A DNA stretch of 59,558 bases from Ectocarpus siliculosus (Eukaryota; Sar; Phaeophyceae; Ectocarpales; Ectocarpaceae). A program made the position numbers and the translations under genes. The stretch lies in contig FN649734.1 in the NCBI GenBank assembly GCA_000310025.1, positions 1,442,466-1,502,023 on the forward strand, read 5' to 3'. Below the pieces are notes generated by a model. It worked only from the letters and a program-made list of their open reading frames with translations. It was not told where the DNA came from and made no database searches. Below, piece after piece: positions 2,559 through 49,630 of the stretch (within the stretch, counting starts at the first letter, position 1; each line of letters starts with the position of its first letter).

Positions 2559-3160
2559 AATAGGCTCTCTCTCGCAGAGAACGCAGTAGCGAGACACCGC
2601 ACGAGAACTCGCAAGCAGGGGTCCGCATGAGTAAGCGGGGTAGATTGATCAAGTCAAACGTAACCCTACAAGACCAAGGCTACGAGTAGATTTGCGAGAA
2701 TATGTTCCCTGTTGTACAGTGCTAGAAGCGGCAAGGGCAAGTAGTTTGGCAAGGCAGGTGGTAATGTGGGATGGTGGTTAGCTGTGAGCTGCTTCGCTTA
2801 TTTCGAGCTTTGGTCGATATGTAGGTATGGGGTGCAACCGTACGTGTGCTCCTGTAGCACGGCTGGGTGAGCTTGGGCCGGCTTCTGACGAGCAAATGGG
2901 GAAGGGGTAACGAGAGCGAGGCAAGTTTGCAATGCATCTAACCTCATGGTAACTTGTCGACGATTGGTGGTAATTTTTCGAATTTCTTCCCCCTCCGGGG
3001 GGGGGCTATGTGTCCGGATTTTGTTTTCGCGAAGACCCTAGGTAAAGTGCTAGCACTTTTTCGTACAACTACCAACCATCCAGGGTCATGCAGGAGGGGG
3101 TAAACACCACGGCCCTTTTCTTCTTTTTATTTATTTTCGTGCCACGCCTTCCTCCTGCAA

Positions 3161-3176
3161 GGGTTAGGGTTAGGGT
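3161..3176 (+). repeat. interstitial telomere-like repeat (TTAGGG)
   Basis: This is a short GGGTTAGGGTTAGGGT tract just upstream of the GC-rich exon-like frame. Its orientation is opposite to the tract at 2536-2558. Confidence 0.6.
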
Positions 3177-3181
3177 CTTCC

Positions 3182-3548
3182 GAGCGGTTTCCCAGGGACC
3201 CGGCCCTGAGACCCAGCCTCGGGGACTACGACTTAAGGGCGGCCGAGGCCGCCGCCGGCGGCTCGTCGACGGCCGTCCACCCGGCCCTCGGGCGCAAGCC
3301 CACGGGGGCCCCGTACGACCCGGCGCTCAGTCGTTTCCTCTTCCACGACGACGGCCGCGTCACCCCCAGCGCCCACGCCTACCGCTCGGAGTCCGCCAGG
3401 CATGTTCGCTTTGCAGTCAACATACCCCTGCTCATTTGGATGCTGCAGACGCCGTGTCGCCCCTCCCATGTGTGTACACACTCAGCACCGTTGCTGCGTG
3501 CACACCTTTCACTGTTCGGTATTGCAATTTTCGACACCGTTATCGTGT
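3182..3548 (+). CDS. possible host exon next to the retrotransposon insertion (unrecognised)
   Basis: Frame 2 is open from before 3182 through the start of the 5' LTR. The first part is GC-rich and reads as plausible protein (segments such as RKPTGAPYDPALSRFLFHDD and RVTPSAHAYRSESARHVRF); the part after about 3420 reads as hydrophobic sequence and may be intron read-through. CAG followed by GCATGT near 3399 could be a rare GC-type donor. I recognise no family. The LTR element is inserted at 3548/3549, so if this is an exon the gene may be interrupted. GC-rich DNA can be open by chance, so confidence is low. Confidence 0.25.
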
Positions 3549-3857
3549 TGTTATGGTATTTGGAGGTAGACATGTGATCGTGGTTGATCATGGTTATTTG
3601 GCGCCGTCGGATGCTAAGACGTGACGTCATGCTAGATCAGGGCTTTATGCCGAGACATGTGCCCTTCTGTTCAGTGTGTGCGTACAGGCGATCTATGATC
3701 GCGTGTGCGTGGGATATTGTGAGTTGGCTTGGAAAGCGTTAATCAAGAGAAAGAGAACAACGGAAAGCAACAACAACCTGCTACTGTGGTCGGACAAGAG
3801 AGTTCCACACAGCTCAAAGGTGATTGATTCTGAAGGAAGGGGTCAAATACCATTACA
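3549..3857 (+). repeat. 5' LTR
   Basis: This 309-base direct repeat starts TGTTATGG and ends ACCATTACA. It matches 17578-17887 apart from one missing base. A 60-residue open frame (3676 onward) occurs in both LTRs but looks like a chance frame. The palindrome GTGATCGTGGTTGATCAT lies near the LTR start. Confidence 0.93.
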
Positions 3858-3858
3858 C

Positions 3859-3875
3859 TGGCGTTGTTGGTTTTG
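3859..3875 (+). other. candidate primer-binding site
   Basis: TGGCGTTGTTGG begins one base after the LTR end. TGG is the complement of a tRNA CCA end, as expected for a primer-binding site. The sequence does not match the usual initiator-Met site and I cannot name the tRNA. Confidence 0.4.
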
Positions 3876-3979
3876 GTCGTGTTGCTTGATTCTTGCGTTC
3901 AATTGATTTTGATTTTTTCGCTTTTTTGCAGTCTGCTGCATAGCGGCAGGGTAACACAGCCTTGTGGCCCTGCTTCAGC

Positions 3980-5314
3980 ATGTCGGCTCCTGATGAGCCG
4001 CGAGGTAGCAGCGACTCTGCTGCCTCGACCTCGGTCCCTTTGTCGCCGCACAACACTCCTGATGATGATGATTCGCATGCTTCGCGTAGCTCGCTCCGTG
4101 TTGATAAGGATTCGCCGAATGCCTTCTTGCATGTTCGCGGTCGGACTTTTCAGCAGCAGCAGCAGCAGCCACGATCGCGATCGCAGTTCGAACGCACGTT
4201 AGCAGACGTAGACTCTCAGGAAGATGATGTTGCACGATCGCACACTGAAGGCCTTGGTCGCGCGCCGCGCTCCAGGTCTGTGCCCTCTCGTGATTCAGCT
4301 CGCCGCTGGTCATCAGATGTGGCACACCGCCTTGAGACACCTGCAGAAATGCAGATGCGCTCGGTGGTTCAACGCGCACACTCACACCCCGCATCCAATT
4401 CCGAACACAGCAATGTGCCGAAATTGGATGGTGAAGGCTCTCGCTCTCCGAGTTTGATTGAAGCCTCACGCACGCATACGAATGAAGCTCACAGCTCCAT
4501 TGTGCGCGTGTCGGACGCCCCCAGTGGCGCGGTCGAGTCTAGTACTCCTGCCCCTGGTAGCCCAGCTGTCGCTGTCGGCATGTTTGAACCTCAGAGTTTG
4601 AATTATTCTGACGCCAGCCCGGCTGCATCCCATTCCGAGCGCGGATATGTGCCGAATGTGGATAGTGTTGGCTCTCAATCCTCGAGTTTGATCGATGCCT
4701 CACACGCGCACTCGATTGGAGTTAACAGCTCCGTCGAACGCACGTCAGAACGCACCAGCGGAGCGGTCGCCTCGAGCGATTCTGCCCCTGGTCTCGCTGT
4801 CGCAAGTCCCCGAGAAACTATCAATACGTTCTCTCGGCTGCATGCCGACACCCCTTCTTTATCGCATTCCGAGAACACCACAAATGTTTCGGAGATGGAT
4901 GGAGATGGCTCTCGCTGGCAAAGTTTGAGAGTCACTGCGACCTCACAGCAGTCGGATACACTGAGATCCGCTGACGGTGAGACACCGCAAGCCACCAGCG
5001 GCGCATTTGCTTCCAGCAACCCTGCCCCGCCTGGTGCCGCGCATGATGCAAGCGACGCTGCACTTGTGTACCCGCGTCCACAATCACGTGAATATGTTCC
5101 GACTGGCAACCATGCTTCTGCCCCTGTTAGTACCGATGCAATTGCAGGCAGAGACGTAGAACCTGTATCTAGTGTATCGTTACCCGCCGTAGACGAAGAT
5201 CGTACCCCTACAGCAGCCCCTCCTCTCCCATTTGCGCCCACACCCGTGCAAACTACGAGTATGCCTGTTGTTAGACGGTCACGGCGTCTAGCTGGTAAAC
5301 CACCATCTATCTGA
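3980..5314 (+). CDS. retroelement ORF1: Ser-rich repeat protein (Gag N-terminal extension)
   Basis: The first ATG (3980, MSAPDEPRGSS) gives 445 residues ending in TGA at 5312. The protein is rich in Ser, Ala, Thr and Pro and has no recognised domain. It contains three imperfect repeats of about 80 residues (starting near 4390, 4610 and 4850), each with a SHSE-like start, a GSxxxSL segment and an SGA(V/F)(A/E)SS segment. It ends in a basic stretch (VVRRSRRLAGKPPSI) resembling STRTRRR in the integrase ORF. After the TGA, the next frame stays open to 5434 (continuing with DALDLARSTAAPTRPV), and Gag-like repeats begin at 5442. ORF1 and Gag may therefore once have been one frame. This is either a frameshift lesion or a +1 recoding site. 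Confidence 0.6.
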   Translation: MSAPDEPRGSSDSAASTSVPLSPHNTPDDDDSHASRSSLRVDKDSPNAFLHVRGRTFQQQQQQPRSRSQFERTLADVDSQEDDVARSHTEGLGRAPRSRSVPSRDSARRWSSDVAHRLETPAEMQMRSVVQRAHSHPASNSEHSNVPKLDGEGSRSPSLIEASRTHTNEAHSSIVRVSDAPSGAVESSTPAPGSPAVAVGMFEPQSLNYSDASPAASHSERGYVPNVDSVGSQSSSLIDASHAHSIGVNSSVERTSERTSGAVASSDSAPGLAVASPRETINTFSRLHADTPSLSHSENTTNVSEMDGDGSRWQSLRVTATSQQSDTLRSADGETPQATSGAFASSNPAPPGAAHDASDAALVYPRPQSREYVPTGNHASAPVSTDAIAGRDVEPVSSVSLPAVDEDRTPTAAPPLPFAPTPVQTTSMPVVRRSRRLAGKPPSI

Positions 5315-5441
5315 CGCTCTCGATCTAGCACGGTCAACGGCCGCTCCAACGCGTCCTGTGCCTGCCCATGAAATTACCGAAAAACGACTACACCCAGTTG
5401 TACCCCATGGTAATGCAACCTCGTCTGTTGGACCTTGACCC

Positions 5442-5679
5442 AGCTCACCGGCTCTAATGAGCATGGTTTGCAGCAGGCTCGCCCTTACCCTTCGGGGTAT
5501 GGTTCGCAGAGCCCCTCGCTCACCGATCCTACGGGATTTGGTTCGACGCGAAACCCTCCCAGCTCACCGGCTCTAATGAGCATGGTTTGCAGCAGGCTCG
5601 CACTTACCCTTCGAGGTATGGTTGGCAGAGCCCCTCGCTCACCGATCCTACGGGATTTGGTTCGACGCGAAACCCTCCC
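5442..5679 (+). repeat. 119-base tandem duplication at the Gag N-terminus
   Basis: Two copies begin at 5442 and 5561 with AGCTCACCGGCTCTAATGAG. The unit is 119 bases, which is not a multiple of three, so the same peptide (LTGSNEHGLQQAR) is read in frame 2 in the first copy and frame 1 in the second. The duplication therefore shifts everything upstream out of frame with Gag. Confidence 0.85.
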
Positions 5680-8667
5680 ACCGACTCACAGGGGTTCGGT
5701 GCGGAGCCCTCGCTCACCGATCCTACGGGATTTGGTTCGACGCGAAACCCTCCCACCGACCCTAAGGGGTTCGGTGCGGAGCCCTCGCTCACCGATCCTA
5801 CGGGATTTGGTTCGACGCGAAACTCTCCCACCGACCCACAGGGGTTCGGTGAGGAGCACACGCTCACCCGTACTTCGGGATTTGGTTCGCAGCAAATGGC
5901 GCTCACCGGCTCGAATGAGCTTGGTTCCGAGCCCCAGCACGCCGGCCCTGCGGGGTACGGTATGCCATACCAGCAGCAAGGGCTGTTGCTGAATCCACCA
6001 CTGTCCATCGCGAGAGGTGGTTATGTGGTACCGCCCCCGGCCCAACCGTCATACAGCCAAATGGCGCAAGGACCGCCGGATCTCAGCCTCCGAACGGGGG
6101 ATGAATTGTTCCTTGACATTCCGGTGTCTAACTTCGCGCACGTGCACCAGCAGGCCTTCACGGAAGCATGCAGGATACAAGTCGCCAAGGCGGCTACAGT
6201 GCTGACGACGATGTTAGAAACCTCGGAGAGACCTACGGTCACTCTCCGTGAATTCATGCATCACGTCGCTCATGCCCCTACGGTAGACGCCCCACTAGTC
6301 GAATCGGTCACGCGCCTTCTGCACGGGCTCAGAGGAGGTTACGCTAACCTTACAGGTGGCTACCGTCCGACGGAGGTCAACTGGTACCTTCCCCCTTCGA
6401 TTCTGCCAACGACGTTTGGTGCTTCTGCAGCATTCGCCAAGCAGACGGGCGATTTCCGTGTCGTCACCCACCGAAAGGTGAAGAAAGAGCCCGCTACCGA
6501 CAGCAGCAGCTCCCACAGCCGTGGCAGCCGTGGTCGTGGTAGTGGTCGAGGTTCTTCCAGCAGCCGTGGACGTGGCAACCATAACGGTCACCGTCAACGT
6601 GGTTCTCGAGGGTCGCGCTCTTCCGCAGCTAGCGAAAGTGACGCGTCGGCTTCCGTGGCCGCCAGCAGCTCCAAGAGATCGAATCGAGGCAAACGTGGCA
6701 AGAAGCGCTCTGGGTCCAACGGCCGCCGAGAGGAGGTCGCTGTTGAACGCAAGCCTTCGGCGACTAAAAGCGTCAGCAAGGAGGACACGAGTCGTGGCCG
6801 TCGTCGTAGCCGGAGTCATAGCAGGAGCTGTAGCCCACGCCGCCGCGGACACCGCCGCGGGCACCGCAGCAGCGACGGCTCGGAGGCACCAGCCTATGAG
6901 GATCACTCCCCTGTGGAGATCTTTGACGCAAACCAACCGCACCTGACCACCGATCTTCCACTGGAAGAGCGTCTGGACCAACCCCTGACAGCTCCGCGTG
7001 ATGACAGGCAAGTACCGTTGTTGGGTGATGTCGCAGCCAGCGACCACTCATTGATGTCACGCAACAGTGCATTCGTAGGCCATAACGCCCAACCGTTGTC
7101 GTCAACGACTGCTCGTGCTCGCCAAGTAGAGATAGACAAGGCTGACGCGCTTGCAGAAGCTGCACGAATCAGAGAGATCAGTGCGAAGTACATCAAGACG
7201 AAGTTTAGGGATATTCGTATACAACCATCGATCCCTTGGCCGGCAAACCTGAAACAGGCTGTGCCGCAGTTGTTAGATTCTATCAAGGCTGCAGCCTTAG
7301 ATGTCTTGCAACAGGCTGACCCTTTCATCGATTTTGACAAATCCGATACGTGGGTTCGCGGGTGGGAAAACCCGCTGAAGAAAGCCATCATTAACGCCGT
7401 ATCCCCAAACAAGCAAACCACTGGTGACCTTATCAGCTCTATCAATGGTATGTTTGTGCAGGTGAAGCAGCGTATGGACGACGGTATGAACGGAGGAGAA
7501 GCTTTCAAGCACCTTCTTCGTCTGATCGCGTCTCACTTCAAGCATGAAGACCGTGGAGATGCCTTGACAACGCTGAATGCGTTCGGTGTTCCCAACGGAA
7601 CTACGTTTGGAGAATTTTTGCGACAGTATCGTACTGCCGTGAACAACATCACGCACTATTCCAGTCTTTTTAGCCTAAACGAGACTTGGATTGTCGGGAT
7701 CACAAGGAATAAGATCAACGACCAGTTTTCTGTGATGATGTCTGACTGTTTTCCGGGTGCAAAGCGTACCGCTGCAGAACCCTACAGTAGTCTGGATGAG
7801 ATGTGGCGAGTGCTGAATGAGTTCACGACCTCTAAGGTTAAGGCAGAGAATGGCGAGCAATATGCTGCGCTCTCGCTTAGTGGATTATCGTTGCATTCGC
7901 AAGGCGGTAGTCGTTCTCAAGGACGTTCGACGACGCAATCGCAGCAGCCTTGGAGCTCCCAGGGAGCACGTGGCAAATCGGTCATGCGTGTTAAGGCAGA
8001 GCCAATTCATGATGTGTTTTGTGTTAGCTACGATGCTTGGCCGCTGGCCACCGATGATCATTGGGAGACAGTGCATGCTGTTGTTTCCAGTGGTTTCAAA
8101 CGTCAACTCCCCCCCCTTTGGACACCACTCCTTAGGACTAGAGCTGACCGAGCACAAGCGTTCAGCGCGAATGCTGGCCGTTGTTTAAACTGTCACGGGT
8201 CTGGCCACTCCATCAAACACTGTGAACAGCCTTTCACCAATGCTAGTGGTGTCCTGAACCCAGATTTAGGTGCACTGACTGATGGTGATGACACGTTTCG
8301 CCTGTGGCAAGAGCGCTTGCGGTCCTGGAGGACTAAGCCTGCGACTGCCACAACACACGGCTCACGCAACTCGAATGGCCAACAAAACCGGCGCCGTTCA
8401 CACAGACCAGCTCATAGAGTTCAATACGCTGGTAACGCTCCAAACCCGCAACAATACACTCAGACGTGGCATCAACCGCCACCACAGGGCCTGCTGCAAT
8501 CTAGTGCACCAGCCCAACAGCACACATTGGTAGCATACCAGCCTCATGCAGGTACTGCTCCAGCGTCTGCCACACACGCGCAGCCGGCGTTAAGAATCAA
8601 CAGCCGACTCCCCGTAGACTCCAACCCAAATGCCCGCACTCCTGGAACGTATAATGCTGGTAACTGA
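5461..8667 (+). CDS. gag: retroelement Gag polyprotein
   Basis: The frame is open from 5461; no ATG occurs before about 5899, so the natural start is unclear and may lie in ORF1. In order there are GFG repeats (5638-5860), an SR/RG-rich basic region (about 6500-6870, with SRGRGSGRG and RRRSRSHSRSCSPRRR), a helical capsid-like region (about 7150-7890, with an IDFDKSDTWVRGW segment typical in style of retrotransposon Gag), and a CCHC zinc knuckle at 8182-8223 (CLNCHGSGHSIKHC, C-x2-C-x4-H-x4-C). The knuckle should bind element RNA in the particle. The ORF ends with TGA at 8665; the same frame then stays open for another 957 bases, so read-through would extend Gag. Length (about 1,000 residues) is large for a gypsy Gag because of the added repeat and SR regions. 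Confidence 0.85.
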   Translation, partial: AWFAAGSPLPFGVWFAEPLAHRSYGIWFDAKPSQLTGSNEHGLQQARTYPSRYGWQSPSLTDPTGFGSTRNPPTDSQGFGAEPSLTDPTGFGSTRNPPTDPKGFGAEPSLTDPTGFGSTRNSPTDPQGFGEEHTLTRTSGFGSQQMALTGSNELGSEPQHAGPAGYGMPYQQQGLLLNPPLSIARGGYVVPPPAQPSYSQMAQGPPDLSLRTGDELFLDIPVSNFAHVHQQAFTEACRIQVAKAATVLTTMLETSERPTVTLREFMHHVAHAPTVDAPLVESVTRLLHGLRGGYANLTGGYRPTEVNWYLPPSILPTTFGASAAFAKQTGDFRVVTHRKVKKEPATDSSSSHSRGSRGRGSGRGSSSSRGRGNHNGHRQRGSRGSRSSAASESDASASVAASSSKRSNRGKRGKKRSGSNGRREEVAVERKPSATKSVSKEDTSRGRRRSRSHSRSCSPRRRGHRRGHRSSDGSEAPAYEDHSPVEIFDANQPHLTTDLPLEERLDQPLTAPRDDRQVPLLGDVAASDHSLMSRNSAFVGHNAQPLSSTTARARQVEIDKADALAEAARIREISAKYIKTKFRDIRIQPSIPWPANLKQAVPQLLDSIKAAALDVLQQADPFIDFDKSDTWVRGWENPLKKAIINAVSPNKQTTGDLISSINGMFVQVKQRMDDGMNGGEAFKHLLRLIASHFKHEDRGDALTTLNAFGVPNGTTFGEFLRQYRTAVNNITHYSSLFSLNETWIVGITRNKINDQFSVMMSDCFPGAKRTAAEPYSSLDEMWRVLNEFTTSKVKAENGEQYAALSLSGLSLHSQGGSRSQGRSTTQSQQPWSSQGARGKSVMRVKAEPIHDVFCVSYDAWPLATDDHWETVHAVVSSGFKRQLPPLWTPLLRTRADRAQAFSANAGRCLNCHGSGHSIKHCEQPFTNASGVLNPDLGALTDGDDTFRLWQERLRSWRTKPATATTHGSRNSNGQQNRRRSHRPAHRVQYAGNAPNPQQYTQTWHQPPPQGLLQSSAPAQQHTLVAYQPHAGTAPASATHAQPALRINSRLPVDSNPNARTPGTYNAGN
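5638..5860 (+). repeat. 75-base coding minisatellite in Gag
   Basis: Units start at 5638, 5713 and 5788, with a related start at 5519. Each encodes about 25 residues of the form LTDPTGFGSTRNPPTD followed by GFGAEPS. The GFG spacing resembles FG-type low-complexity repeats. Period 75 keeps the frame. Confidence 0.85.
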
Positions 8668-9627
8668 CAGCCCAACGGCGGCTTGTCGTTACTCCCCGAC
8701 CCGCCGATGGCAAAACAGGGAGCAGCTAGATATGTGTCGCAGGATGCGCGTATAGTAGGTACGATCGAGTGTACCACTCCTGTTCCTACAACCGACACTT
8801 CTGCTACAAGCGGTAGTGCTTCGACCTCATCGGGTGAAGATGGTGTAGCCCACACTCCCGACCACGGCAGCTTCAGCGCTGTCGTCAATGCATATACCCC
8901 AAGGTTAGGAACTCAAGGAGCGACCTGTCTTGAAGGCGGCTCCCCGAGTTTTAACACAGCTCGAGCAGCTTGCACAAGCGGCAGCTTCAGCGCTGTCGTC
9001 AGTAAATATACCCCAAGGTTAGGAACTCAAGGAGCGACCTGTCTTGAAGGCGGCTCCCCGAGTTTTAACACAGCTCGAGCAGCTTGCACAACCCACGATT
9101 ACACCACGTTGCCGCCCGCAAACCAGCCTGAACCATTACGTGTTGGCTACACGAATGCAAGGGTCGGTTTGAGGTGCGGGTACGGAAGGTCGGGATTGTC
9201 GAGCATGCCCAAGAGGTCCGCTCAGACGTCCTCGTGGAAGACCGTTAGGACACCTACGTTGTCGACAATACATGAAGTGTCGCCGGGTTTAGCCACCTCG
9301 AGCGATGCTTTGGACATGTCCACTACGTACGGGTCATCGACAGCCTGCGGCGATACAGCCGATGGAACTCGAGACGGTAATAAAAGTCACTCGCCGCACG
9401 GTGAAGCGAGTATGACCGATTGCGTTGAAAGAAATACGCGTCGATTTCCCGTGGTTTGCGATTCGCGGAGTACCAAAACTGAGCGGTCCCCAACCGCGAC
9501 CACGGAGGTGCTGACAACACCGTATTCGGAGGACGCTCCGATTGCGCCCCTCGCTGAACAAACAGCGAAAAACTCGCGACCCTCGTCAAGAGGAGGTCCG
9601 TCATGTCTCCAACGTGATGGATTCTAG
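8668..9627 (+). CDS. Gag-Pol linker frame downstream of an in-frame TGA
   Basis: This frame follows the Gag stop with no frame change (first residues QPNGGLSLLPDPPMAK; first ATG at 8707) and runs to TAG at 9625. It has no recognised domain and is rich in Ser, Thr, Gly and Pro. It holds a perfect-frame duplication of 114 bases (8866-8979 and 8980-9093; peptide TPRLGTQGATCLEGGSPSFN in both). It overlaps the Pol frame by about 80 bases at 9545-9624, the geometry expected for a +1 frameshift from Gag-linker to Pol. It might be translated only by stop read-through, from an internal start, or not at all. Confidence 0.5.
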   Translation, partial: QPNGGLSLLPDPPMAKQGAARYVSQDARIVGTIECTTPVPTTDTSATSGSASTSSGEDGVAHTPDHGSFSAVVNAYTPRLGTQGATCLEGGSPSFNTARAACTSGSFSAVVSKYTPRLGTQGATCLEGGSPSFNTARAACTTHDYTTLPPANQPEPLRVGYTNARVGLRCGYGRSGLSSMPKRSAQTSSWKTVRTPTLSTIHEVSPGLATSSDALDMSTTYGSSTACGDTADGTRDGNKSHSPHGEASMTDCVERNTRRFPVVCDSRSTKTERSPTATTEVLTTPYSEDAPIAPLAEQTAKNSRPSSRGGPSCLQRDGF

Positions 9628-12600
9628 CGAAAGCACTACAGACTATACACCCCCACCGGGTTGCGCTGTTGGAAGAGTAGAGGACTTGGGGAAACAGACA
9701 TCCCCCTCCTCCGCTATAGCTGGTATTCGTATCTACCCTCCTCCTCCGACCGACGCCAGGTGTTCACCACCAGCGTTTGATCCGAGCAAGGAGTACTGCA
9801 CACCTAACATGGTGTTGTTCTGGCAAGCCCCGTCGGTTTTCTCGCAATGGACGCCCTCCATCTTTACTGTAGATGGTGTGGAATACTCTTGTGGAGAACA
9901 ATTCTTCGCGGCTGCCAAGGCTCGTCTCTTTGGCGACCAAGATACGTTGCGGCGGATTATGCGTGTTTCTGACCCGATTAAACATAAGCGTTACGGACGC
10001 CAAGTTAAAGGGTTTGATGAAGCTGTTTGGGAGCGCGAGCGTGAAAACGTGGTGCGTGTCGCCTCCTACTACAAATTTTCGCAAAATCCCGCTATGCGAC
10101 AACATCTTTTGGGCACCGGCGACAAAATGCTCGTCGAAGCTAGCCCATTCGATGCCATATGGGGCATTGGACATCGCGCGGATGATCCTGCTGCAATCCA
10201 ACCCTCTTTATGGCGGGGCTCCAATCTGCTCGGCAAAAGCCTGCAGGTTGTTCGAGACCTACTCCGAGAGCACGCGCCGACGCCGACACTTCCACCACAA
10301 GTTTCGTCCGACGCTCAGCTCCGGAATACAATACATGAGGTTAACCCTGCAACGCAAGAGCGTATTTCGACGGCTGCCGCCGAGGAGGCCGCCCCGTCGT
10401 CAGGTTACCGCATAAAATCAGCGCATGTTCCAAGGGATCACAGCGCTGAAGTTCTCGCGGTTACGTCCGCTGAGTATCATGAGGAAGATCGTGTACCGTT
10501 GCTCGCTGAGCATGGTCCTTGCCTCGTAGGTGGTGTTGTTACAGTTGACGACGCTTCATTTACGACTCGAGTCAAAATCCACGCTGGGCCAGCCAAATCA
10601 CAATATGGTTGCGCCGCTCTGCTCGATTCAGGATCACCGGCCACGTTCATCAACAGCAACGCTGTCGGTACCCTCAAAGCCATGGGAGCCATCTCAGAGG
10701 CTTGCATATCGCACGGTAACTCACGTTCTTGGGGAGGTTTTGGTAAATCCGAGTCTCTTCAGACGTCTGATACAGTCCGTCTGAGTGTGCAATTTTTCCA
10801 CGGTGATACGCCTTCGGCTTCTCTTGCCGTTTGGGCGCACATCGTCCCTGCAAACACCATGCAGTTTCCCATCCTATTGGGACGCGATAGTTTCATGCGA
10901 TTTAACACTCGCACGTACCGTATGTTGCCTCCGAGGCCACTGGACAATCGCGTTTTTGGTGAATATACGCTTGCCCACCAGGATGATTCTGGTGCGGTCG
11001 CGTATGTGCCCGATTTCACAGCCCCGGCGGACCAATTCCAGCTCCGTTATGCAGGGCCAACGGGTACTTCATTGTCAGACGACCACCAAATGATTGAAGT
11101 CAACTTGGTGCGTTCCAACGGTACACCGGCTCTGACCGGTCAATACCTTGTCGACATGTTGCCTGATGTTTCGTCGAAGGAAGAGATCTTTGTCTCCGAC
11201 GGGCGTCAGTTTGTGCCGCTCGCGGGCGCTGCAGAACTTGAGCCAGGAGACTTGCTCGGTACTGCTGCCGCCCCGCTGATGCGCGTCCCGGTAGAGCATT
11301 TAGAACAACAGTTTAGTGACGAAGCTGACACTTCATGTTCGGTGCCTGGACCTATTTTGGGTTCTACCGAGGATAACGCGGACAGGACCGTCGACCCGCA
11401 GGTGCGTTGCCACGATCCCTTCGTGCACAACCTACGATCCACCGATCCTCCTGTGCCGGACCCAGGGAAATCACCCCCTGCGGCCCCTGCCCCCGCTCAC
11501 ACTTCGCCCTCGCCGCCACCACAGCATGTGATGGAGCGGTTGAGCGCTGATCAGAGAGTTAGCTTTGAGTCATTGTGGAATCGCTTGCCGCCTCACCTGA
11601 AGTTGGTTAAGTTTGATTTACACGGTCCTGGTTGGTCACCAGAGGTCATCACAGAACTTGGTGATCTTTTACATGATTTCCAAGACGTGTTTTCCACATC
11701 CTCGACGGATTTAGGGTCCTGTTCCCTGATGCCGTTTGAGATCAAAGTACCTCCGGATTGTCCCCCTGTGACGTCCAAACCGTATCGTATGAATCCTTTG
11801 GTTGCAAAGCAAGTCGATGCCATTTTGGACCAGTATCTAGCTGCTGGCCTAATTCAGCACTCGACCTCTCCTTATTCCAGCCCCATCGTGGTTATACCAA
11901 AGAAGTCTGGTGGAATACGCATCACGGTTAACTACCGAAAGTTGAACCATATCAGCAGCTTTGGTCAACTTCCCATCCCCCGAGTCGACGAGATTCTAAC
12001 GAAACTCAACAGAGGTTCGATTTTCTCGTTATTCGATTTCACCGGTTCTTTCCACCAGATCACTGTCCACAAGGACACGATCCCCCTTACGGCTTTTGCG
12101 ACCCCCACTCGTTTGTTCGAATGGCTCCGCATGCCGATGGGTGCTAGCCAATCCGCAGGCCACTTTGTAAAAGTGATTAACGAAGTAATCAAAGGACTCG
12201 ATGGAGTCGAGGCATACCTCGATGACGTCGTTGTTTTTGACGAAGGCCCACTGCAGCATGTCCGTAATATGCGCACGCTCTTCGAACGGTTGAGAAAGTA
12301 CGACCTCAAACTTTCTCCCTCGAAAGCCACCATCGGTACCACCAAGGCTGACTTCTTGGGGCACACCATATCTTCGAAAGGTGTCCTCCCCAACGCCCGT
12401 AAAGTAGCCGCCCTGGCAGGTATGCCCATGCCTACGACCGTCAAGCAACTCAGGTCACTCATGGGTGGTCTGAGCTACTACCGACGTTTCCTCAGAGACA
12501 TGGCCAAGCGTGTGAAGTCCATTACGCACTTGCTCAAAAAAGGTGTTCCCTTCGCTTTCACGAGCGACATGGAAACAACTGTTCGCAGCCTACTGGCTGA

Positions 12601-13012
12601 GCTCGCGAAACCGCCCATTTTAGTGTTTCCTGATTGGGACGCTATTGCGGACGGTACACGCCCTTTACGTCTTTGCTGTGACGCCAGCTCCGACGGTCTC
12701 GGCGCCGCGCTGGAGCAAGAGCAGAAAGACGGCTCGGTACGGCCGATCGTTTTCATCAGCAGAGCCACGCTCGACGCTGAACGCAACTGGACCGCTCTCG
12801 ATCTCGAAGCAGGAGCCGTTGTATGGGCGATCAAGCGTCTCCGCGAATACCTTCGTGGCACACACTTCCGCATCTATTCCGACAATAAGGCGCTGGAAAG
12901 TTTGTCAAAAATCAGCGAGCACAACCCACGCGTCCAACGCTGGATTGAGTTCCTTGAAGCATACAGCTACACGTTAGGAGTACCGACGAGGTGCCTCCAA
13001 CGGAAACGCTGA
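9542..13012 (+). CDS. pol: retroelement Pol part 1: NADAR, aspartic protease, RT, RNase H
   Basis: The open frame runs from 9542; the first ATG is 9617 (MDSSESTTDY). Numbering from 9542, residues 90-243 are a NADAR domain and 355-455 an aspartic protease (ALLDSGSPATF with the D-S-G catalytic triad at 362-364, then ILLGRD). A Pro-rich spacer follows. Residues 735-950 are reverse transcriptase with YLDDVVVFD (catalytic YLDD at 892-895), and 1040-1145 RNase H with CCDASSDG, an LDLEAGAVVWA segment and YSDNKAL supplying the acidic residues. The frame breaks at about 12985: the expected RNase H end continues one frame over (ADMLSRLP at 13008 onward), so one extra base or a +1 shift separates the two halves. 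All visible catalytic motifs upstream are intact. Confidence 0.92.
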   Translation: MRPSLNKQRKTRDPRQEEVRHVSNVMDSSESTTDYTPPPGCAVGRVEDLGKQTSPSSAIAGIRIYPPPPTDARCSPPAFDPSKEYCTPNMVLFWQAPSVFSQWTPSIFTVDGVEYSCGEQFFAAAKARLFGDQDTLRRIMRVSDPIKHKRYGRQVKGFDEAVWERERENVVRVASYYKFSQNPAMRQHLLGTGDKMLVEASPFDAIWGIGHRADDPAAIQPSLWRGSNLLGKSLQVVRDLLREHAPTPTLPPQVSSDAQLRNTIHEVNPATQERISTAAAEEAAPSSGYRIKSAHVPRDHSAEVLAVTSAEYHEEDRVPLLAEHGPCLVGGVVTVDDASFTTRVKIHAGPAKSQYGCAALLDSGSPATFINSNAVGTLKAMGAISEACISHGNSRSWGGFGKSESLQTSDTVRLSVQFFHGDTPSASLAVWAHIVPANTMQFPILLGRDSFMRFNTRTYRMLPPRPLDNRVFGEYTLAHQDDSGAVAYVPDFTAPADQFQLRYAGPTGTSLSDDHQMIEVNLVRSNGTPALTGQYLVDMLPDVSSKEEIFVSDGRQFVPLAGAAELEPGDLLGTAAAPLMRVPVEHLEQQFSDEADTSCSVPGPILGSTEDNADRTVDPQVRCHDPFVHNLRSTDPPVPDPGKSPPAAPAPAHTSPSPPPQHVMERLSADQRVSFESLWNRLPPHLKLVKFDLHGPGWSPEVITELGDLLHDFQDVFSTSSTDLGSCSLMPFEIKVPPDCPPVTSKPYRMNPLVAKQVDAILDQYLAAGLIQHSTSPYSSPIVVIPKKSGGIRITVNYRKLNHISSFGQLPIPRVDEILTKLNRGSIFSLFDFTGSFHQITVHKDTIPLTAFATPTRLFEWLRMPMGASQSAGHFVKVINEVIKGLDGVEAYLDDVVVFDEGPLQHVRNMRTLFERLRKYDLKLSPSKATIGTTKADFLGHTISSKGVLPNARKVAALAGMPMPTTVKQLRSLMGGLSYYRRFLRDMAKRVKSITHLLKKGVPFAFTSDMETTVRSLLAELAKPPILVFPDWDAIADGTRPLRLCCDASSDGLGAALEQEQKDGSVRPIVFISRATLDAERNWTALDLEAGAVVWAIKRLREYLRGTHFRIYSDNKALESLSKISEHNPRVQRWIEFLEAYSYTLGVPTRCLQRKR
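9809..10270 (+). other. NADAR (YbiA/DUF1768-like) domain within Pol
   Basis: About 154 residues follow the NADAR pattern in order: FWQAPSVFSQW, then DGVEYSCGEQFFAAAKARLF (the conserved Glu-aromatic/Lys helix, E119), then GRQV and VWERERE, then YYKFSQNPAMRQHLLGTGD, then LVEASPFDAIWGIG (E199, D204, W207), then LWRGSNLLGKSLQVVRDLL. Characterised members are N-glycosidases acting on riboflavin intermediates or removing ADP-ribose from nucleic-acid bases. The acidic and Trp residues expected in the active site are present, so the domain looks competent. It lies between the Gag-Pol frame change and the protease. Its role in the element is unknown. Confidence 0.9.
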
Positions 13013-13013
13013 C

Positions 13014-13424
13014 ATGCTGTCTCGTCTGCCGATTGAGCCTACTGCCGCCGACATCAACGGTAACAGTCGTTTGACGTCCCCAGAAGACGTTGGTGTGTAT
13101 CTGATCCGAGCGACAGGTCACGCACCACCCGGACAAACCACGCCTGGCGTTGGTTTGGGTGGGCTGGCGCCCCCGAGCGAGAACGCCGCTTTGGGTGGGC
13201 TACCCCTCACTTCCGATGATTTTGCGGATTTTCGCAAACACGGGCCTCGAATGAGGATTGACGACCTTGATGCTCCTGCAGGAGAATTCGTCGCTCGTGT
13301 TTTTCCGTACGTCAATGCGCGAGGACCTTTGCGACACCTTGCGGACGATCGTGCATTGTCTTGCACCGACCACTCCGTATTTGCTGTGCCTGAGGTTACT
13401 TCCGCTGCAACCCAGAAAATATAG
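13014..13424 (+). CDS. pol: retroelement Pol part 2: RNase H tail and linker
   Basis: This frame resumes Pol after the break near 12985 with NADMLSRLPIEP, the usual end of a gypsy RNase H connection, and continues 130 residues of unrecognised linker to TAG at 13422. The integrase frame follows in the same frame immediately after the TAG, so the stop is either a lesion or a read-through site. Confidence 0.75.
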   Translation: MLSRLPIEPTAADINGNSRLTSPEDVGVYLIRATGHAPPGQTTPGVGLGGLAPPSENAALGGLPLTSDDFADFRKHGPRMRIDDLDAPAGEFVARVFPYVNARGPLRHLADDRALSCTDHSVFAVPEVTSAATQKI

Positions 13425-16283
13425 GGTGCTGTGCCGGCACTCCGGTCTTCAGCTTCTCCTGTTGTGTCTCCGATGAGACCATTGTATAGGGACACCGCCA
13501 CGGTTTACGGACCGTCTGCGCGACCCCACACGGATACAGCTGCATTTGCGCTCCCTGTCCACGACACACAGACCGCCGGCGATAACTCTCGGTTGCCCCC
13601 TGTCGTGTCTCATGCGACCGCAACTGTCGACGCCGGCTCCCACTCTGATCGTTTGGATGCCGCCGACTCATTGCCGCCGCCTTCGACCTCTCGGTTGCGA
13701 CCGCATCGTATTGATCCGTCGGAACTGATCTCTACTCGTACGCGTCGCCGAACCGCGGCTGCTGCGGGTCAGCCTCAACCCGATGTAAACTACGGTTTCG
13801 GTCCTGATTTGTCGATCCCCCCACACGTTCCGCGTGCAGGCGCTTCTCGTCGTCAAACACGAGTGACACCAGCTGCCACCACGCCTGAGCCTGCTGTCGA
13901 ACCTGTCCCAACGGTGCCCATAGCGCCGCCGGAGACGGTTACCGACGCCCCTACGGGTCCTCTGTTGGGTTTGTCACAACCGGCTGCTGCAGCTGGTAAG
14001 GCAACGCCCGCAGTGGACTCCATGGTCCTCAATCCTGCAGAATTAGAATTCCGTGAGTCCGTCGAACGCTACACGCGTGCCGATTGGGCGCGGGAACAGC
14101 AGAAAGAGCCGGTGTGTGAAGCCACCATCCGCTACATTCTCCTCAAACGCCCTCAGAGTCTACCTGTCGATTTCTTTGCCAGAGTGTCATATCACTCCAG
14201 GCATAGACCCTCGTTGGAGGATATTCGAGAGCTTGCAGATAAAGGACGCCTCGTCACTGACGATGGCCTTTGCCTCTTGGTACGAAAGAATACCAAGCCC
14301 CCGGTCTCTTCTGACCGTCCCGGAGGACGAGCTGCACGTCTGTTGAATGACGAACCCACTCGTATTTACGTGCCCATGTTAATGCGACCTTGGGTCATGC
14401 AAGCTTGTCATGCCAACGCCCTCTGCCACCTTGGTACCGCTCGCACGCTCAGCTTGCTTGAGAGGTTTTACTGGTGGATTGGGATGAGTATCAGTACTCG
14501 TTGGTGGATTCGGCGATGTTTGAAATGTCAGGCCCGCAAAACTGCGCGCCAGACTATTCGCTGGCCGATTCTCACGATCCCTCTGCCTTCGGCACCAGGG
14601 GTCGCGATTAGCGTCGACTATTTTGGTCCGCTTCCCACAACTCCGCGAGGTTTCTCGTATATTTTGCTATTCACTGACCGTTTCAGTCGGAGAGCCAATA
14701 TGTACGCAGTGACTGACGCCGAGTTCACAGCTGAAGGTACAGCTGACGTCCTTGTCAATAAATACATGCCTGTTTGGGGATGCCCCCTCAGCATTCTTTC
14801 TGACAATGGATTGCAGTTTTGCTCCAAACTGTCGGTTGCCATCCTAAAATTGCTACGCGTCCGAAAAATTACGACGAGCGCGTACCACCCTAGCGGCAAC
14901 GGAGGAGTTGAGCGCGTGAACCACACCATGGCCCAGATGCTGGCGATGGTTGTGAACGAACGACAAGATGATTGGGACATTCATCTCCCTCATGTTGAAT
15001 TCGCGTACAACAACTCCGTTAGCGCTGCAACAGGATTGGCGCCCAATGAGGTGCATATGGCGCGCCTTCCCAGGTTTCCACTGACCGTTTTTGACAACAT
15101 TTACGCTCGTGGTCACCAGTCGCTTGCCCGCGATCAGCTCGAGTATTGCAACCTTGCCGCCGATCGGCAACGGCGCTCCTACGAGCTAGTGCGTGAACAA
15201 CACGCACTCACAGTTTCCCGTATGGAAAAACGGAACTCGAAACTGTCTGATGCCTTACATAAACTACCCGTTTACGCTACCGGTGGTTGGGTGTGGGTCT
15301 ACAACCATTTGGCTACCATCCGCCAAGGTGCCAAACTCACTTCCAAGGCCCGCGCAGACGCTGACTCCCAGGTACTCAAAAAGAAGCTGTCCTTGAATTG
15401 GACAGGTCCTTTTAAAATCCTCGCAGTCGGTCCTTGCAACAAGGCTTCCGATGGCAGCCCGGTGGCTGACAAGCTCCTGTATTTGGATCTTCCCTCCGAT
15501 ATGCCCGGAGTGGATGCCAAGCGCCGAGTTTCTGTCGCTCGTTGCAAACCGTGTGCGAACCCACACGATAGTGACGACATGCCTCGGTTCTTGCCTGCAG
15601 GCCTCACGCAGTATGTTCTCAACAACTACACGACGAAGTCTCCGCCGTACCATGTTACCGCGGACGATGTTTCGGCGCCTGTCCGCAGGCTCGAGGTTGA
15701 GAAAATCACGGGACACCAGTCGGTTCGAGGACGTGGCGGCGTTATCGCAGTCATGTACGAGACCCACTGGAAAGGTCTTCTGCGGCCCTCGTGGGAACGA
15801 GAAATGGACCTCCAACACTCCCGAAAACAGATTCTTCTGTATTGGGCTGGTACACCCGACCATCACCGGCAGACTAACCGTCTGTATCGTCGCATGCGCA
15901 TTGGCGCAGCGGAACGTGAACTGTCTCGCATCAAAGGCGAGCGGTCCTCGTCGCCCGGGTACGAATATGTTCCCCGCGATGTTTGGGCCCGCCGTTTTCG
16001 CAACACCGTGCTGCCTGTAGGCGCACACTTCTGGTACAAGGCTCAAGACGCTCTATGGTGGCTAGGGAAAATCTCCGGACATACTCCGACTACAAACGTC
16101 TTCGTCGTTCGCTTCCTGGATGACCCTGGACCTGTCAAGATCACCCTCTCCCCTTCGCGCTACACGACAGCTTTGGGAGCTGTTTGTGGTTCTTGGTGCC
16201 TTCAGCTGCACCGAAGTAGTCCCTTCATGCGAGGTATCTTACGCAATGTAGACGAGTCGCGTGGTACGGCTATAGATGCCTGA
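13425..16283 (+). CDS. pol: retroelement integrase with chromodomain and Tudor-like domain
   Basis: Open in the same frame as the upstream piece after TAG 13422. Numbering from 13431, the N-terminal 200 residues are Pro/Thr-rich with a basic STRTRRR patch. The zinc-binding H-H-C-C module is at 327-366 (H327, H333, C363, C366 in CLKCQARK). The catalytic core has D396 (SVDYFGP), D458 (LSDNG) and E494 (GGVERVNH), with the D-x35-E spacing. A GPF motif lies at 659-668 (TGPFKILAVG). Residues 755-806 resemble a chromodomain (THWKGLLRPSWERE), and 862-911 resemble a Tudor-type barrel (FWYKAQDALWWLGK, then FVVRFLDDPGPVKI). The catalytic set looks complete. The C-terminal readers probably steer insertion toward marked chromatin (inference from chromoviruses). 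Confidence 0.92.
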   Translation, partial: GAVPALRSSASPVVSPMRPLYRDTATVYGPSARPHTDTAAFALPVHDTQTAGDNSRLPPVVSHATATVDAGSHSDRLDAADSLPPPSTSRLRPHRIDPSELISTRTRRRTAAAAGQPQPDVNYGFGPDLSIPPHVPRAGASRRQTRVTPAATTPEPAVEPVPTVPIAPPETVTDAPTGPLLGLSQPAAAAGKATPAVDSMVLNPAELEFRESVERYTRADWAREQQKEPVCEATIRYILLKRPQSLPVDFFARVSYHSRHRPSLEDIRELADKGRLVTDDGLCLLVRKNTKPPVSSDRPGGRAARLLNDEPTRIYVPMLMRPWVMQACHANALCHLGTARTLSLLERFYWWIGMSISTRWWIRRCLKCQARKTARQTIRWPILTIPLPSAPGVAISVDYFGPLPTTPRGFSYILLFTDRFSRRANMYAVTDAEFTAEGTADVLVNKYMPVWGCPLSILSDNGLQFCSKLSVAILKLLRVRKITTSAYHPSGNGGVERVNHTMAQMLAMVVNERQDDWDIHLPHVEFAYNNSVSAATGLAPNEVHMARLPRFPLTVFDNIYARGHQSLARDQLEYCNLAADRQRRSYELVREQHALTVSRMEKRNSKLSDALHKLPVYATGGWVWVYNHLATIRQGAKLTSKARADADSQVLKKKLSLNWTGPFKILAVGPCNKASDGSPVADKLLYLDLPSDMPGVDAKRRVSVARCKPCANPHDSDDMPRFLPAGLTQYVLNNYTTKSPPYHVTADDVSAPVRRLEVEKITGHQSVRGRGGVIAVMYETHWKGLLRPSWEREMDLQHSRKQILLYWAGTPDHHRQTNRLYRRMRIGAAERELSRIKGERSSSPGYEYVPRDVWARRFRNTVLPVGAHFWYKAQDALWWLGKISGHTPTTNVFVVRFLDDPGPVKITLSPSRYTTALGAVCGSWCLQLHRSSPFMRGILRNVDESRGTAIDA
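15693..15848 (+). other. divergent chromodomain after integrase
   Basis: The pattern VEKITGHQSVRGRGG, then ETHWKGLLRPSWERE, then a helix ending YWA matches the chromodomain layout (strand, hydrophobic-W-K-G core, W-E, helix). The N-terminal aromatic cage residue is not obvious, so histone-mark binding is uncertain. Confidence 0.65.
16014..16163 (+). other. Tudor-like domain at the Pol C-terminus
   Basis: VGAHFWYKAQDALWWLGK followed by FVVRFLDDPGPVKITLSPSRY has the strand and aromatic pattern of Tudor/agenet-type barrels (aromatic-W-x-G-K, then V-x-F-x-D-D). The same block is conserved in the second, broken element near 45560-45720. Confidence 0.55.
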
Positions 16284-16380
16284 TAGCACTGTGGCATTGT
16301 TTTCCTTGTTTTATGTGTATGTATATGTATGTGTATATGTTTGTGTGTTACATGTTTGTGTTTATGTATGTTTGTCTGTA

Positions 16381-16695
16381 TGTTTCCAGCTCGCCCTCTC
16401 GATCTATTTTCGAGACTGGCTATTGCTTCTGTATGTTTCTAGCTCGCCCTCTCGATCTATTTTCGAGACTGGCTATTGCTTCTGTATGTTTCTAGCTCGC
16501 CCTCTCGATCTATTTTCGAGACTGGCTATTGCTTCTGTATGTTTCTAGCTCGCCCTCTCGATCGATTTTTGAGACTGGCTATTGCTTCTACATGTTTCTA
16601 GCACGCCCTCTCGAATATTTCGAGACTGGCTATTGCTCCTTTATGCTTTCCGCTCGCCCTCTCAATCTCTTTGAGACTGGCTCTTGCTTTTGTGT
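16381..16695 (+). repeat. 53-base tandem array in the retroelement 3' region
   Basis: About six copies start at 16381, 16434, 16487, 16540, 16593 and near 16643. The core is GCCCTCTCGATCTATTTTCG followed by AGACTGGCTATTGCTTCT. The first three copies are nearly identical and the last two diverge and shorten. Confidence 0.85.
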
Positions 16696-17565
16696 TGCGT
16701 ACTTTCGCGCCCCGTTTGTCACTTCTCGGTCGGTTGTCGAAAGTTTTCGCTCCCCTTTACCTATTTTTCAATGCGACCTAGGTTCGTCATTAGTTGCGGT
16801 GACACCCAAATTTGGTGCATCATTTAACTCCCCACCCTATGGTTTGCTTTGCATATTTTGTGGTCCAACGTTCCGTCAGTGCTTCTATTGCATGCCTCGG
16901 CCAACGTGTTCCATCTTGGTACTTTCTTTAGCATTTTTCTTCATACAATTGGCCTTGACGTACACGTAGGATTGTTTTCCTCGCCCCACCCCGATCGCAA
17001 GCACGTTGTATCGTGACATGCGAACGTTGTTTTTGGCGTTGGTTCCTGTCCTTTTCTTTGGCCGTTGTTTACGTTCCCCGGAAACCCCCTCTTTCCCTGC
17101 TTTTCTCGATTTTGGTCGACCCCTAGCGGTTTTCCATGTCGTTTGATCCTTTGCAGGCTCGGTTTTCGTTTCTTATTCTTTATGTTTACATTTCAGCACT
17201 CGATCGCATCGTAGCCCCCCTTCCCGTAAGGTTCTGGCTTACTTGATTGCGTATTCGATCGGTTCATTCGTGCGAGATCGTTTGTGATTTTCTCTTCACG
17301 ATTTCGTTACTTCGTGTTATGGTCTTTTCGGTTCGGATGTTTTGGTTATTTTTCGCACCCATGTGCCTTTTTCCGATTTTATCCACCGACTTTGCCGCCC
17401 AGGCTTCTGTGTTTTCTTCTTTCTTGGTTCCGCTTCTTTGGTTTGGTTAACGGAGAGGTGCGGGTGAGGGTTTTGAGTTGTCGTATCTTCGATCCATCCC
17501 GCAATCCTCTTGATTGACTAGAGTCCCTCCGAGGTTTGCTTCTGTATCTGCATCTACGTCCACTC

Positions 17566-17573
17566 AAGGTGGG
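17566..17573 (+). other. candidate polypurine tract
   Basis: AAGGTGGG lies four bases before the 3' LTR start (17578). The second element has CAGGGTGGGCTAG at the same place before its TGTTACG LTR start, which supports the assignment. Confidence 0.5.
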
Positions 17574-17577
17574 CTAT

Positions 17578-17887
17578 TGTTATGAGTATTTGGAGGTAGA
17601 CATGTGATCGTGGTTGATCATGGTTATTTGGCGCCGTCGGATGCTAAGACGTGACGTCATGCTAGATCAGGGCTTTATGCCGAGACATGTGCCCTTCTGT
17701 TCAGTGTGTGCGTACAGGCGATCTATGATCGCGTGTGCGTGGGATATTGTGAGTTGGCTTGGAAAGCGTTAATCAAGAGAAAGAGAACAACGGAAAGCAA
17801 CAACAACCTGCTACTGTGGTCGGACAAGAGAGTTCCACACAGCTCAAAGGTGATTGATTCTGAAGGAAGGGGTCAAATACCATTACA
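17578..17887 (+). repeat. 3' LTR
   Basis: 310 bases, TGTTATGA to ACCATTACA, equal to the 5' LTR except for one extra A at 17585. It is followed directly by the GTGT target duplication. Confidence 0.93.
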
Positions 17888-19979
17888 GTGTCTACAATGT
17901 TGACGACACCGCACAAAATGGTTCAAAACCACATCGTCTGTGTCCCTGCAGCTCTCAGCTGTCGCGTAAAGCTCTCGTTCGTCCCATAGTAACCGGTGGT
18001 TGCCGACGTATGGCCCAAAATCATGTCACAGCACCGCCGTCGGCGGAATCGTAAGAAAGCTCTTGTATGACACCGTCAACAACTTTCCGAAAACACCTCC
18101 AATATGCACGAAACAAATTGAGCTGTGTTCCCGCGGCCCCCGGCTGTTTTGGACAAGCCACCTTCTGACCAAAACTAAAAACGTGGTTCCCCTGATACAC
18201 CCAAGAATGAATGTGGTCGTAGCATCACCACGGCGATGTCGTAAACCCGTCTTTACGACACCGCGCGGAACTTTCCTAAAACACCTCCAACCTGCACAAT
18301 CCCAATTTTGCTGTGTTTCCAAGGGCTCCAGCTGTCTCGCAAGTCATCATTCGGCCGAAAGCAACACGTGGTTGCCGCCGTACATGTAGGCCTTCATGTT
18401 GCCTTTCTCAAGACGACCGAAAGAGGGCGCAAGGTAGATCGGCTACTACATAATCCACAGAGAAGACTATCTCCGTCACTGCATACCCACGAATGGGAAG
18501 CCTGGCCAAGTTGGCAAGCATTTTCGTTGGCACTTACGATTTGGCCAGCGCACTGCACCCAGAGGTCCATAGGCATTGCGGAACGGCCCCGCCTACCAAG
18601 ACGTAAGCAAAGGCCTCGGTGGTGGAAGGAGTGGGGGGCGCAAGCGAGTGTACCCCTTGTTTCGTGCATCGGAGGTTTACTCGTCGAGGGAACCAATATG
18701 CATCTGAAACGAAACCCTGCGTTTTCAGTAGCACGACACTTGTCGTCGAAGTGGGAGTGAGAGGTGTGCGAAACATTATGTTACATCCTGAAGGAAAATG
18801 GCATGGGTCGTTGACAAAATAGAGCTCCACGGAAACACGGTCTTCACGATGTTCTTGCCCGTGACATTCACAGGCAGGGCTTTCGGCGTCCCAAGTTCAG
18901 GTGTGAAACCGAGTTCCGACTCGTTCGAAACATCCTGTTTGACTCTCGTAACCCTTCGTTAGAACTTCACTCTTTCATTCTTGACCAGGATATTCATATC
19001 GGTGTCTGTACCGGAAGTCCCGGTGTGAAACCGGGTCCTGACTCCGACACGCATATCTCGCTGGTTTGATCGAATCATAAGAGTACCACCGCAGAACGTC
19101 ATTGCCATATACATGTTTCACTATCAGCTTCGAGGAGGCTTCCTCGTTGAGGGAACCGACATGCACTGAATCAAAACTCCACCTTCTCAGAACTTCAGTA
19201 TCACGACACGGTTGAAGAAATGACTGTGGAAATTCTGCGAAATCAACACGACTATCCAAGGTAAAATGGTACCATGTGGTGAGAACTAGACCTCCATGGA
19301 AACAGGGGCAGATCACTGCGTCGGCATGCTCTGCCCGCCGCCCCGACAGCTCATTAGTGTCTGGAGCGAAAGGAGGGAGTGACCTCTTCACGCTTTTCAA
19401 TCTCAAGATATCCGATACGATAATTCGCGAGTCAGTTATTTGATCCAGATTTTGATCCATCGGGTCTGAACGGAATTTTACTGCTGCGGGTGTTTACCCC
19501 GCTGTTGTGCTCTCAGTGTCGCGTTGAAATCTACCCAGAAAGAACTGTGTGCTCTGCATGGGGCAATCGGCGTACAAATATGAACAAGAACCTCGTTACA
19601 CCTATGCACAAAATATGAACTTCCAGAATGAGAACATGGGCTCGGTTTGAGGCAACCAATAAGCGTCGAGCCTCACGCAATCGAAGCGGCCGTTATGCTG
19701 TTACATTAATCCTTCATCGTTTTCACTGCTCTTGCTGCTATTTCTTCTGTTGTTGCGGGCGGGCCTCCCGGCAGTTGCCGTGCTGAAGAAGAGAAGCCGA
19801 GTCGAAATTGATGCTCTCTGTGGTGCCTGTGTAGGGCACCAACGGCGCTAACCAGCTGACCAAATGAACATGTCAGTCCCAATATTCTTACTCGTTCTGG
19901 TGGTCAGGCCGCACCTTGCAGAGCAAGTTCAGGTTTACACCGTCGGTGACAGAAGGGACCGCGCCCCCTGGAACATTTT

Positions 19980-42500: not shown

Positions 42501-43080
42501 ACCGCAGAATTCCGACATGTGTCCAAATCCGTTGAGTTTTTTGGCATCGGCAATAAACACCACCCTGTGTAAACGAATCAAGTTTTAAAGGTGTTTCGGG
42601 GATAAAAAGTCAAGGAAAAAAACAAACAAAAAAAACTCTCCGTCACGCCATGCGCCTGGAAACAGGGCGTTTGCCGGTACTTTCAGATTTCGGAACAACC
42701 ACCTGTGTGCAGAGAAAAGTTGTCATTTGTGCTGGGGGAATTTATGGATTCATTGTTGTGCACGGACTATATCTGCCGGCCAGTTCTGTACCACCTTCTT
42801 CCGAGAGCTGGCAGTGAATTCGTTCACTTATGAATCTCAAGTGAAGCGTAGAGGGAGGGGATATGCAAGCCACGGTTCGCGATTTATTGGAGCAAGTTTC
42901 CGTGTTCTTGTCGTTCACTTCTGGGATACCTCTCAGAGAACCATTGCTGGGTTCATAGCGTACTCGTCGACCAGGCTGTTGATATTTCATTCTATGTAGC
43001 AACATGAAGAAGTTTTGGAACACTTCCATTACTTTGCCCGCCGTTTTTCATTGCTGTACTCGTCAGCAAGACAAATCTAT
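39586..43080. other. intergenic DNA without a recognised gene
   Basis: The frame 40163-40813 (216 residues, plus) is the longest but shows no domain. A degenerate array of CCxCGGxGCCCCC units lies at 41550-41730. The stretch 42020-42300 has frames on both strands with no recognised product. AT-rich sequence near 42480 includes a 13-base A run. I see no exon-intron structure like that of the two host genes. Confidence 0.45.
41550..41730 (+). repeat. degenerate short tandem array (CCACGGTGCCCCC-like)
   Basis: Units such as CCGCGGAGCCCCCAT, CCACGGTGCCCCCCAT, CTGCGGAGCCCCCT and CCACGGTGCCCCCT recur about every 20-25 bases, separated by ATTTAT-like spacers. Confidence 0.6.
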
Positions 43081-43170
43081 TGACGTATAGCACGCCGCCA
43101 TTAACCCCGGGGACATCCCGGCACACTACAGTCTGCCGCTCAATCTCCGGCACAACCTTCCAGTTCGACA

Positions 43171-49595: not shown

Positions 49596-49630
<35 letters not shown>

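Follow-up and report, generated by a model that had tools for sequence, protein, structure and literature searches.

The stretch of DNA analysed here (the window, 59,558 nucleotides of contig FN649734.1 of the brown alga Ectocarpus siliculosus, positions 1,442,466 to 1,502,023) contains a Ty3/gypsy long terminal repeat (LTR) retrotransposon at window positions 3549-17887, in whose Pol polyprotein a NADAR domain of the YbiA type lies between Gag and the protease. The element is assigned to Ty3/gypsy by its LTRs and by the domain order protease, reverse transcriptase (RT), RNase H, integrase, with the protease recognised by its DSG motif alone; the element as a whole runs from Gag through NADAR, protease, RT, RNase H and integrase to a putative chromodomain. 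The features of the Pol frame that contains the domain are as follows.

9515..13012, forward strand: Pol open frame, stop to stop (1165 amino acids), with leader, NADAR, protease, RT and RNase H
9818..10267, forward strand: NADAR domain (PF08719), YbiA-type, in Pol, by profile match, fold and alignment
9896..9898, forward strand: Glu aligned with catalytic Glu88 of the E. coli C7 NADAR (Glu43 of the Phytophthora enzyme, a number inferred by spacing)
9917..9919, forward strand: Lys aligned with Lys50 of the Phytophthora NADAR (Lys95, essential, in the E. coli C7 NADAR)
10136..10138, forward strand: Glu taken by alignment as the last-strand marker of the YbiA family (position 125, inferred by alignment), followed by Asp130 and Trp133
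10625..10633, forward strand: aspartic protease motif DSG, read from the sequence, with no match to a Pfam protease family
11894..12370, forward strand: reverse transcriptase RVT_1 (Pfam), with the motif YLDD, read from the sequence, at 12215
12656..12964, forward strand: RNase H (PF17917, Pfam)

A preliminary description, made from the letters alone, had placed a NADAR domain at 9809-10270 in one frame with RT and RNase H, and the profile searches bear it out in both position and frame: PF08719 matches residues 93-242 of the protein encoded at 9542-13012 (E 2.6e-46, 158.3 bits against a cut-off of 35.1) over profile positions 2-163 of 163, and the RVT_1, RT_RNaseH and RT_RNaseH_2 matches share its reading frame. 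The NCBIfam model TIGR02464, riboflavin biosynthesis intermediates N-glycosidase, also matches (E 4.6e-43, 147.1 bits against a cut-off of 73.7), and the domain has the NADAR/YbiA fold. Among 48 copies chosen as open over the domain, mostly high scorers, the catalytic Glu (its column placed by spacing) and the Lys are kept in 46 each, both being present in the window copy; the last-strand position, a column likewise identified by spacing, is Glu rather than Asp or His in all 48, which assigns the domain to the YbiA family. Homology, in its fold, its intact ADP-ribose site and its constraint, makes N-glycosidase activity of the domain very likely. The domain might instead serve to bind ADP-ribosylated chromatin or proteins and so guide the particle or its integration site, with catalysis incidental, and the putative chromodomain (below cut-off) at the end of the same Pol would suit such a role; retention of the catalytic Glu and Lys, beyond the residues needed for binding, makes this improbable.

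The fusion is not confined to the window. In a profile scan of the genome assembly (189 Mb, 492 contigs), all 150 scored places, out of 230 first-look candidates, exceed the NADAR cut-off. For at least 122 of 150 RT places (of 440 RT candidates) a listed NADAR lies upstream on the same strand, 1-4 kb away (median 2008 nt); five of the 28 others were read, of which two have a NADAR that is not on the list, one is seemingly cut at its 5' end, and two have neither NADAR nor protease within 3 kb. Fifty-four of the 150 NADAR places were read as copies, a sample that leans to high scorers: NADAR shares one uninterrupted frame with RT in 31 and with the protease in 48, while six have no open frame covering 90% of the domain and another two are frameshifted in its middle. 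With two frameshifted copies (L060 and L061) set aside, which were placed by eye in subfamilies 2 and 7 and excluded from the counts, six subfamilies can be told apart. At one NADAR place (G000:C14:2595036-2595485) the open frame is just 163 amino acids long with no listed RT downstream, and this could be a stand-alone gene or a truncated copy.

Across four subfamilies (41 copies) the domain is under purifying selection. Changes common to several copies number 16 nonsynonymous to 29 synonymous (ratio of the per-site frequencies, pN/pS, 0.16; p 3.6e-9), and changes seen in a single copy number 74 to 57 (pN/pS 0.39; p 1.7e-7), under a binomial test that takes changes as independent and with open domains chosen, which omits the worst decay. 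The corresponding single-copy and shared ratios are 0.38 and 0.06 for the protease and 0.49 and 0.06 for RT. Codon-model (GY) estimates of omega for NADAR are 0.737 in subfamily 5, to which the window copy belongs, and 0.422, 0.195 and 0.358 in the other three; in the same order they are 0.508, 0.695, 0.080 and 0.164 for the protease and 0.451, 0.243, 0.235 and 0.425 for RT. For pairs of copies with synonymous divergence (dS) of 0.02-0.1, the mean nonsynonymous divergence (dN) divided by the mean dS is 0.23 for NADAR, 0.24 for the protease and 0.28 for RT; at dS 0.1-0.4 the NADAR value is 0.70 over 34 pairs, 19 of them involving the frameshifted L060 or L061. Between subfamilies dS is mostly saturated, and mean identity among five of them marks the domain as an island of conservation: at 60% NADAR is about as alike as the protease (55%), while the leader before it has 25%, the linker that follows it 30% and RT-RNase H 69%. 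That this is a NADAR domain which selection has kept across the lineage is, in our judgement, close to certain. Over the whole set of copies, the outcomes named beforehand as fatal to the preliminary description (no significant match, no other copies, dN/dS near one) did not occur.

Phylogenetic analysis points to an old origin. In a NADAR tree of 51 rows, a branch supported at 99/97 sets apart 17 rows: the six subfamilies, four Ectocarpus sp. CCAP 1310/34 Pol proteins, two further Pol-type proteins and five short proteins. It excludes 17 loci from bacterial genomes, eight viral loci, and nine more proteins that stand alone, of which one comes from an MMETSP transcript. Not in this tree are P0001, P0007 and P0129-P0131, short pieces, the greater part of the 120 listed matches, and the majority of the viral and bacterial loci (80 of each); the same split has support 96/94 in a smaller tree, of 26 rows. 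An RT tree of 15 rows agrees in joining subfamilies 6 and 7, subfamilies 1 and 2, and the Ectocarpus partners, the CCAP 1310/34 proteins falling in the same clades in both; the trees disagree on subfamily 4, which stands beside subfamily 5 for RT (98/96) and, at the weak support of 90/66, nearer subfamilies 1 and 2 for NADAR. The named Pol relatives are all from Ectocarpus sp. CCAP 1310/34 (five of eight proteins in one search, four of five in another). Among the matches listed from bacterial and archaeal genomes, the top bacterial loci are from Nannocystis, Polyangia and a Myxococcales bin, at 54-57% identity. These trees suggest that a NADAR of bacterial type was probably captured once, long ago, and their best fit is a single capture with mostly vertical descent thereafter; horizontal acquisition has already been suggested, after mostly bacterial matches, in PMC12477816. 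At two myxobacterial loci (L143 and L144) no ADP-ribosyltransferase was recognised by eye beside the NADAR gene. The Nannocystis locus, L143, has two adjoining NADAR-type genes (2164-2730 and 2773-3486), one resembling E. coli YbiA by eye, the other near the Pol type.

What the enzyme may do is suggested by its relatives. The Phytophthora enzyme, four types from E. coli or phage, and a myxobacterial YbiA are reported, in the published passages available, to take ADP-ribose off guanine in vitro; the case of guanine ADP-ribosylation described there is a bacterial toxin-antitoxin system. We propose that a Ty3/gypsy lineage captured a bacterial-type, YbiA-class NADAR, probably once, and kept it between Gag and the protease; that the domain would travel into the particle as part of Gag-Pol, whether or not it is then freed by the protease; and that it would remove ADP-ribose from guanine in the RNA or single-stranded cDNA of the element, and so reverse a modification by the host that would otherwise block reverse transcription or integration. 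This mechanism is preferred because of the guanine activity of the relatives, the nearness of the domain to the Phytophthora enzyme, the kept active site and the place in Pol. As a whole, a captured, kept and active NADAR that de-ADP-ribosylates the element's nucleic acid is about as apt to be right as wrong; guanine de-ADP-ribosylation of that nucleic acid as the job of the domain is a tentative assignment that falls somewhat short of an even chance, the steps beyond an active N-glycosidase being ones that we infer. The wider scenario, in which the alga would mark foreign nucleic acid by guanine ADP-ribosylation and the gypsy lineage would be sustained in an arms race by a captured bacterial de-ADP-ribosylase, is speculative and rather unlikely.

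Several results weigh against this interpretation. The choice of 48 open, mostly high-scoring copies somewhat favours constraint; constraint on shared changes is weaker in NADAR (0.16) than in the protease and RT (0.06 each); and in the window's own subfamily 5, which alone gives no firm evidence of constraint, NADAR omega (0.737) is above that of the protease and RT, with three shared nonsynonymous changes to two synonymous. In the closest pairs (dS below 0.02, 46 pairs) the ratio of mean dN to mean dS stands at 1.11 in NADAR, against 0.60 in the protease and 0.53 in RT. The subfamily 5 values, the closest-pair value of about 1.1, and the copies in which the domain is closed or frameshifted are what a neutral passenger or one-off capture would leave behind, but the six subfamilies, the conservation island, the shared-change pN/pS and the presence of NADAR at so many RT places already contradict such an explanation for the lineage and leave it hardly any probability. 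The preliminary description had taken preservation of the domain in a young copy as a sign of usefulness; purifying selection is seen over the four subfamilies together and not firmly in subfamily 5 alone.

The host side also counts against the proposed substrate: the genome gave no match to a DarT-family guanine ADP-ribosyltransferase, in a search that recovered one control and did not handle introns, and no match to the ART family, in a search that recovered no control. PARP matches exceed the cut-off at four exon-size places. The YbiA-type enzymes also act on riboflavin intermediates, according to the same published passages, and the domain might clean up small molecules (ADP-ribose derivatives, riboflavin-type intermediates or damaged nucleotides) in or near the particle. 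The name of the matching NCBIfam model, and the fact that the Pol domain is without the insertion of the Phytophthora nicotianae NADAR 8bau, are in keeping with this, but the domain is nearer in sequence and in fold to 8bau, a guanine-ADP-ribose hydrolase, than to E. coli YbiA, with the caution that a shared fold proves no substrate. In some retroviruses a dUTPase between Gag and the protease has a comparable house-cleaning role. We know of no tie between a retroelement and riboflavin synthesis, and made no search for one. On balance cleaning of small molecules is rather unlikely. Less probable still is a part in processing the element's RNA intermediate, suggested in PMC12477816 by analogy with RNA viruses; such viruses are reported to carry NADAR in polyproteins with their polymerase, but the frames of the element gave no Pfam match to an RNA-processing partner (ligase or KptA). 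The preferred explanation is still removal of ADP-ribose from the nucleic acid of the element.

The other features of the window copy are as follows.

3545..3548 and 17888..17891, no strand: GTGT, flanking both LTR ends
3549..3857, forward strand: 5' LTR, by repeat comparison, the outer edge being our reading
5461..8667, forward strand: Gag open frame, with a CCHC knuckle at 8182-8223 (by eye) and a terminal TGA
13425..16283, forward strand: integrase open frame (Pfam), with H2C2 at 14370-14543 and the rve core at 14592-14891, apart from the RT frame in the window copy
15693..15845, forward strand: putative chromodomain (Chromo, E 0.0016, 18.8 bits, below the curated cut-off of 25.1)
17578..17887, forward strand: 3' LTR, by repeat comparison, the outer edge being our reading

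The LTRs share an identical core of 301 nt and differ slightly in length at the 5' edge, and the flanking GTGT is likely a 4-bp target duplication. The copy had been described as young; it is young yet not intact, Pol being broken past RNase H, where the frame is lost (stop at 13010-13012), with a TAG at 13422-13424 upstream of the integrase. An ENA protein that is identical across NADAR (P0001) reads through both broken places, and therefore copies that are open there exist. A Gag-Pol frame change before NADAR, also claimed beforehand, gives way to a different explanation. In subfamily 5 the NADAR frame is open across about 600 nt upstream in eight of 13 copies, the five exceptions being the window copy, L013, L014, L024 and L056; the eight open copies differ from the window copy upstream of NADAR by a single one-base gap, and the other four siblings by two or more. 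Because most of the subfamily is open there, one base away, the frame change is most likely a lesion of the window copy and a few others and not a programmed shift. The Gag stop is TGA followed by CAG (8665-8673) in all four copies inspected (the window copy and L228-L230), the same frame remains open after it in the stretch read in all four, and two copies have a 2537-amino-acid open frame around RT, approximately the distance from the Gag TGA to the end of Pol. From these observations, the usual layout is probably Gag, an in-frame UGA and Pol, with stop-codon read-through at the Gag TGA a possibility.

The element has internal repeats of 75 nt in the Gag frame (5557-5931) and 53 nt after Pol (16322-16639), as well as a 113-nt duplication in the Pol leader (8865-9091). 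The C-terminus of Pol past the chromodomain (15966-16280) appears Tudor-like by eye, a likeness that neither Pfam nor PDB supports and for which the model is unreliable. Elsewhere in the window, positions 43008-46177 hold a second gypsy element, a 3' fragment with integrase and a weak chromodomain match that is related to the NADAR element, and an open frame at 48951-50243 that ends in a RING-CH-like stretch (by eye) is probably an exon of a host gene.

The preliminary description knew of no earlier report of such a fusion; one exists, published in Genome Biology in September 2025 (PMC12477816), in which a NADAR-gypsy fusion is described for the families of one gypsy lineage, out of four, in Ectocarpus sp. 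7. No other description of a retrotransposon NADAR was found in a literature search that covered titles and abstracts, with most subscription journals outside it. Our element is likened to that lineage of Ectocarpus sp. 7 (for example Gypsy-12_Ec32) by its published description and its relatives, not by its sequence, and the C-terminal chromodomain looked for as a mark of that lineage is matched below the curated cut-off; the available passages of PMC12477816 give no selection, active-site or copy-level analysis of it, and tests of the active site, of selection and of a single capture are what is added here. What was a published curiosity becomes a testable case: the Pol of many copies has kept an enzyme domain whose active site is known and which was probably captured once. 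Were ADP-ribosylated guanine its substrate, transposon control in a eukaryote would include the ADP-ribosylation of nucleic acids as one of its layers. Among known systems, the Phytophthora nicotianae NADAR 8bau is 32-35% identical to the Pol domain, carries an insertion that the Pol domain lacks, and is not described as a Pol fusion in the passages available. E. coli YbiA (2b3w) is more distant in sequence and has WGDG where the Pol domain has WGIG, and the myxobacterial NADARs, closer at 54-57% identity, are yet stand-alone genes outside the Pol clade. The Tx1 long interspersed nuclear elements of the oyster Crassostrea gigas also carry NADAR within a retrotransposon, but in open reading frame 1, as a domain called divergent in PMC12477816.
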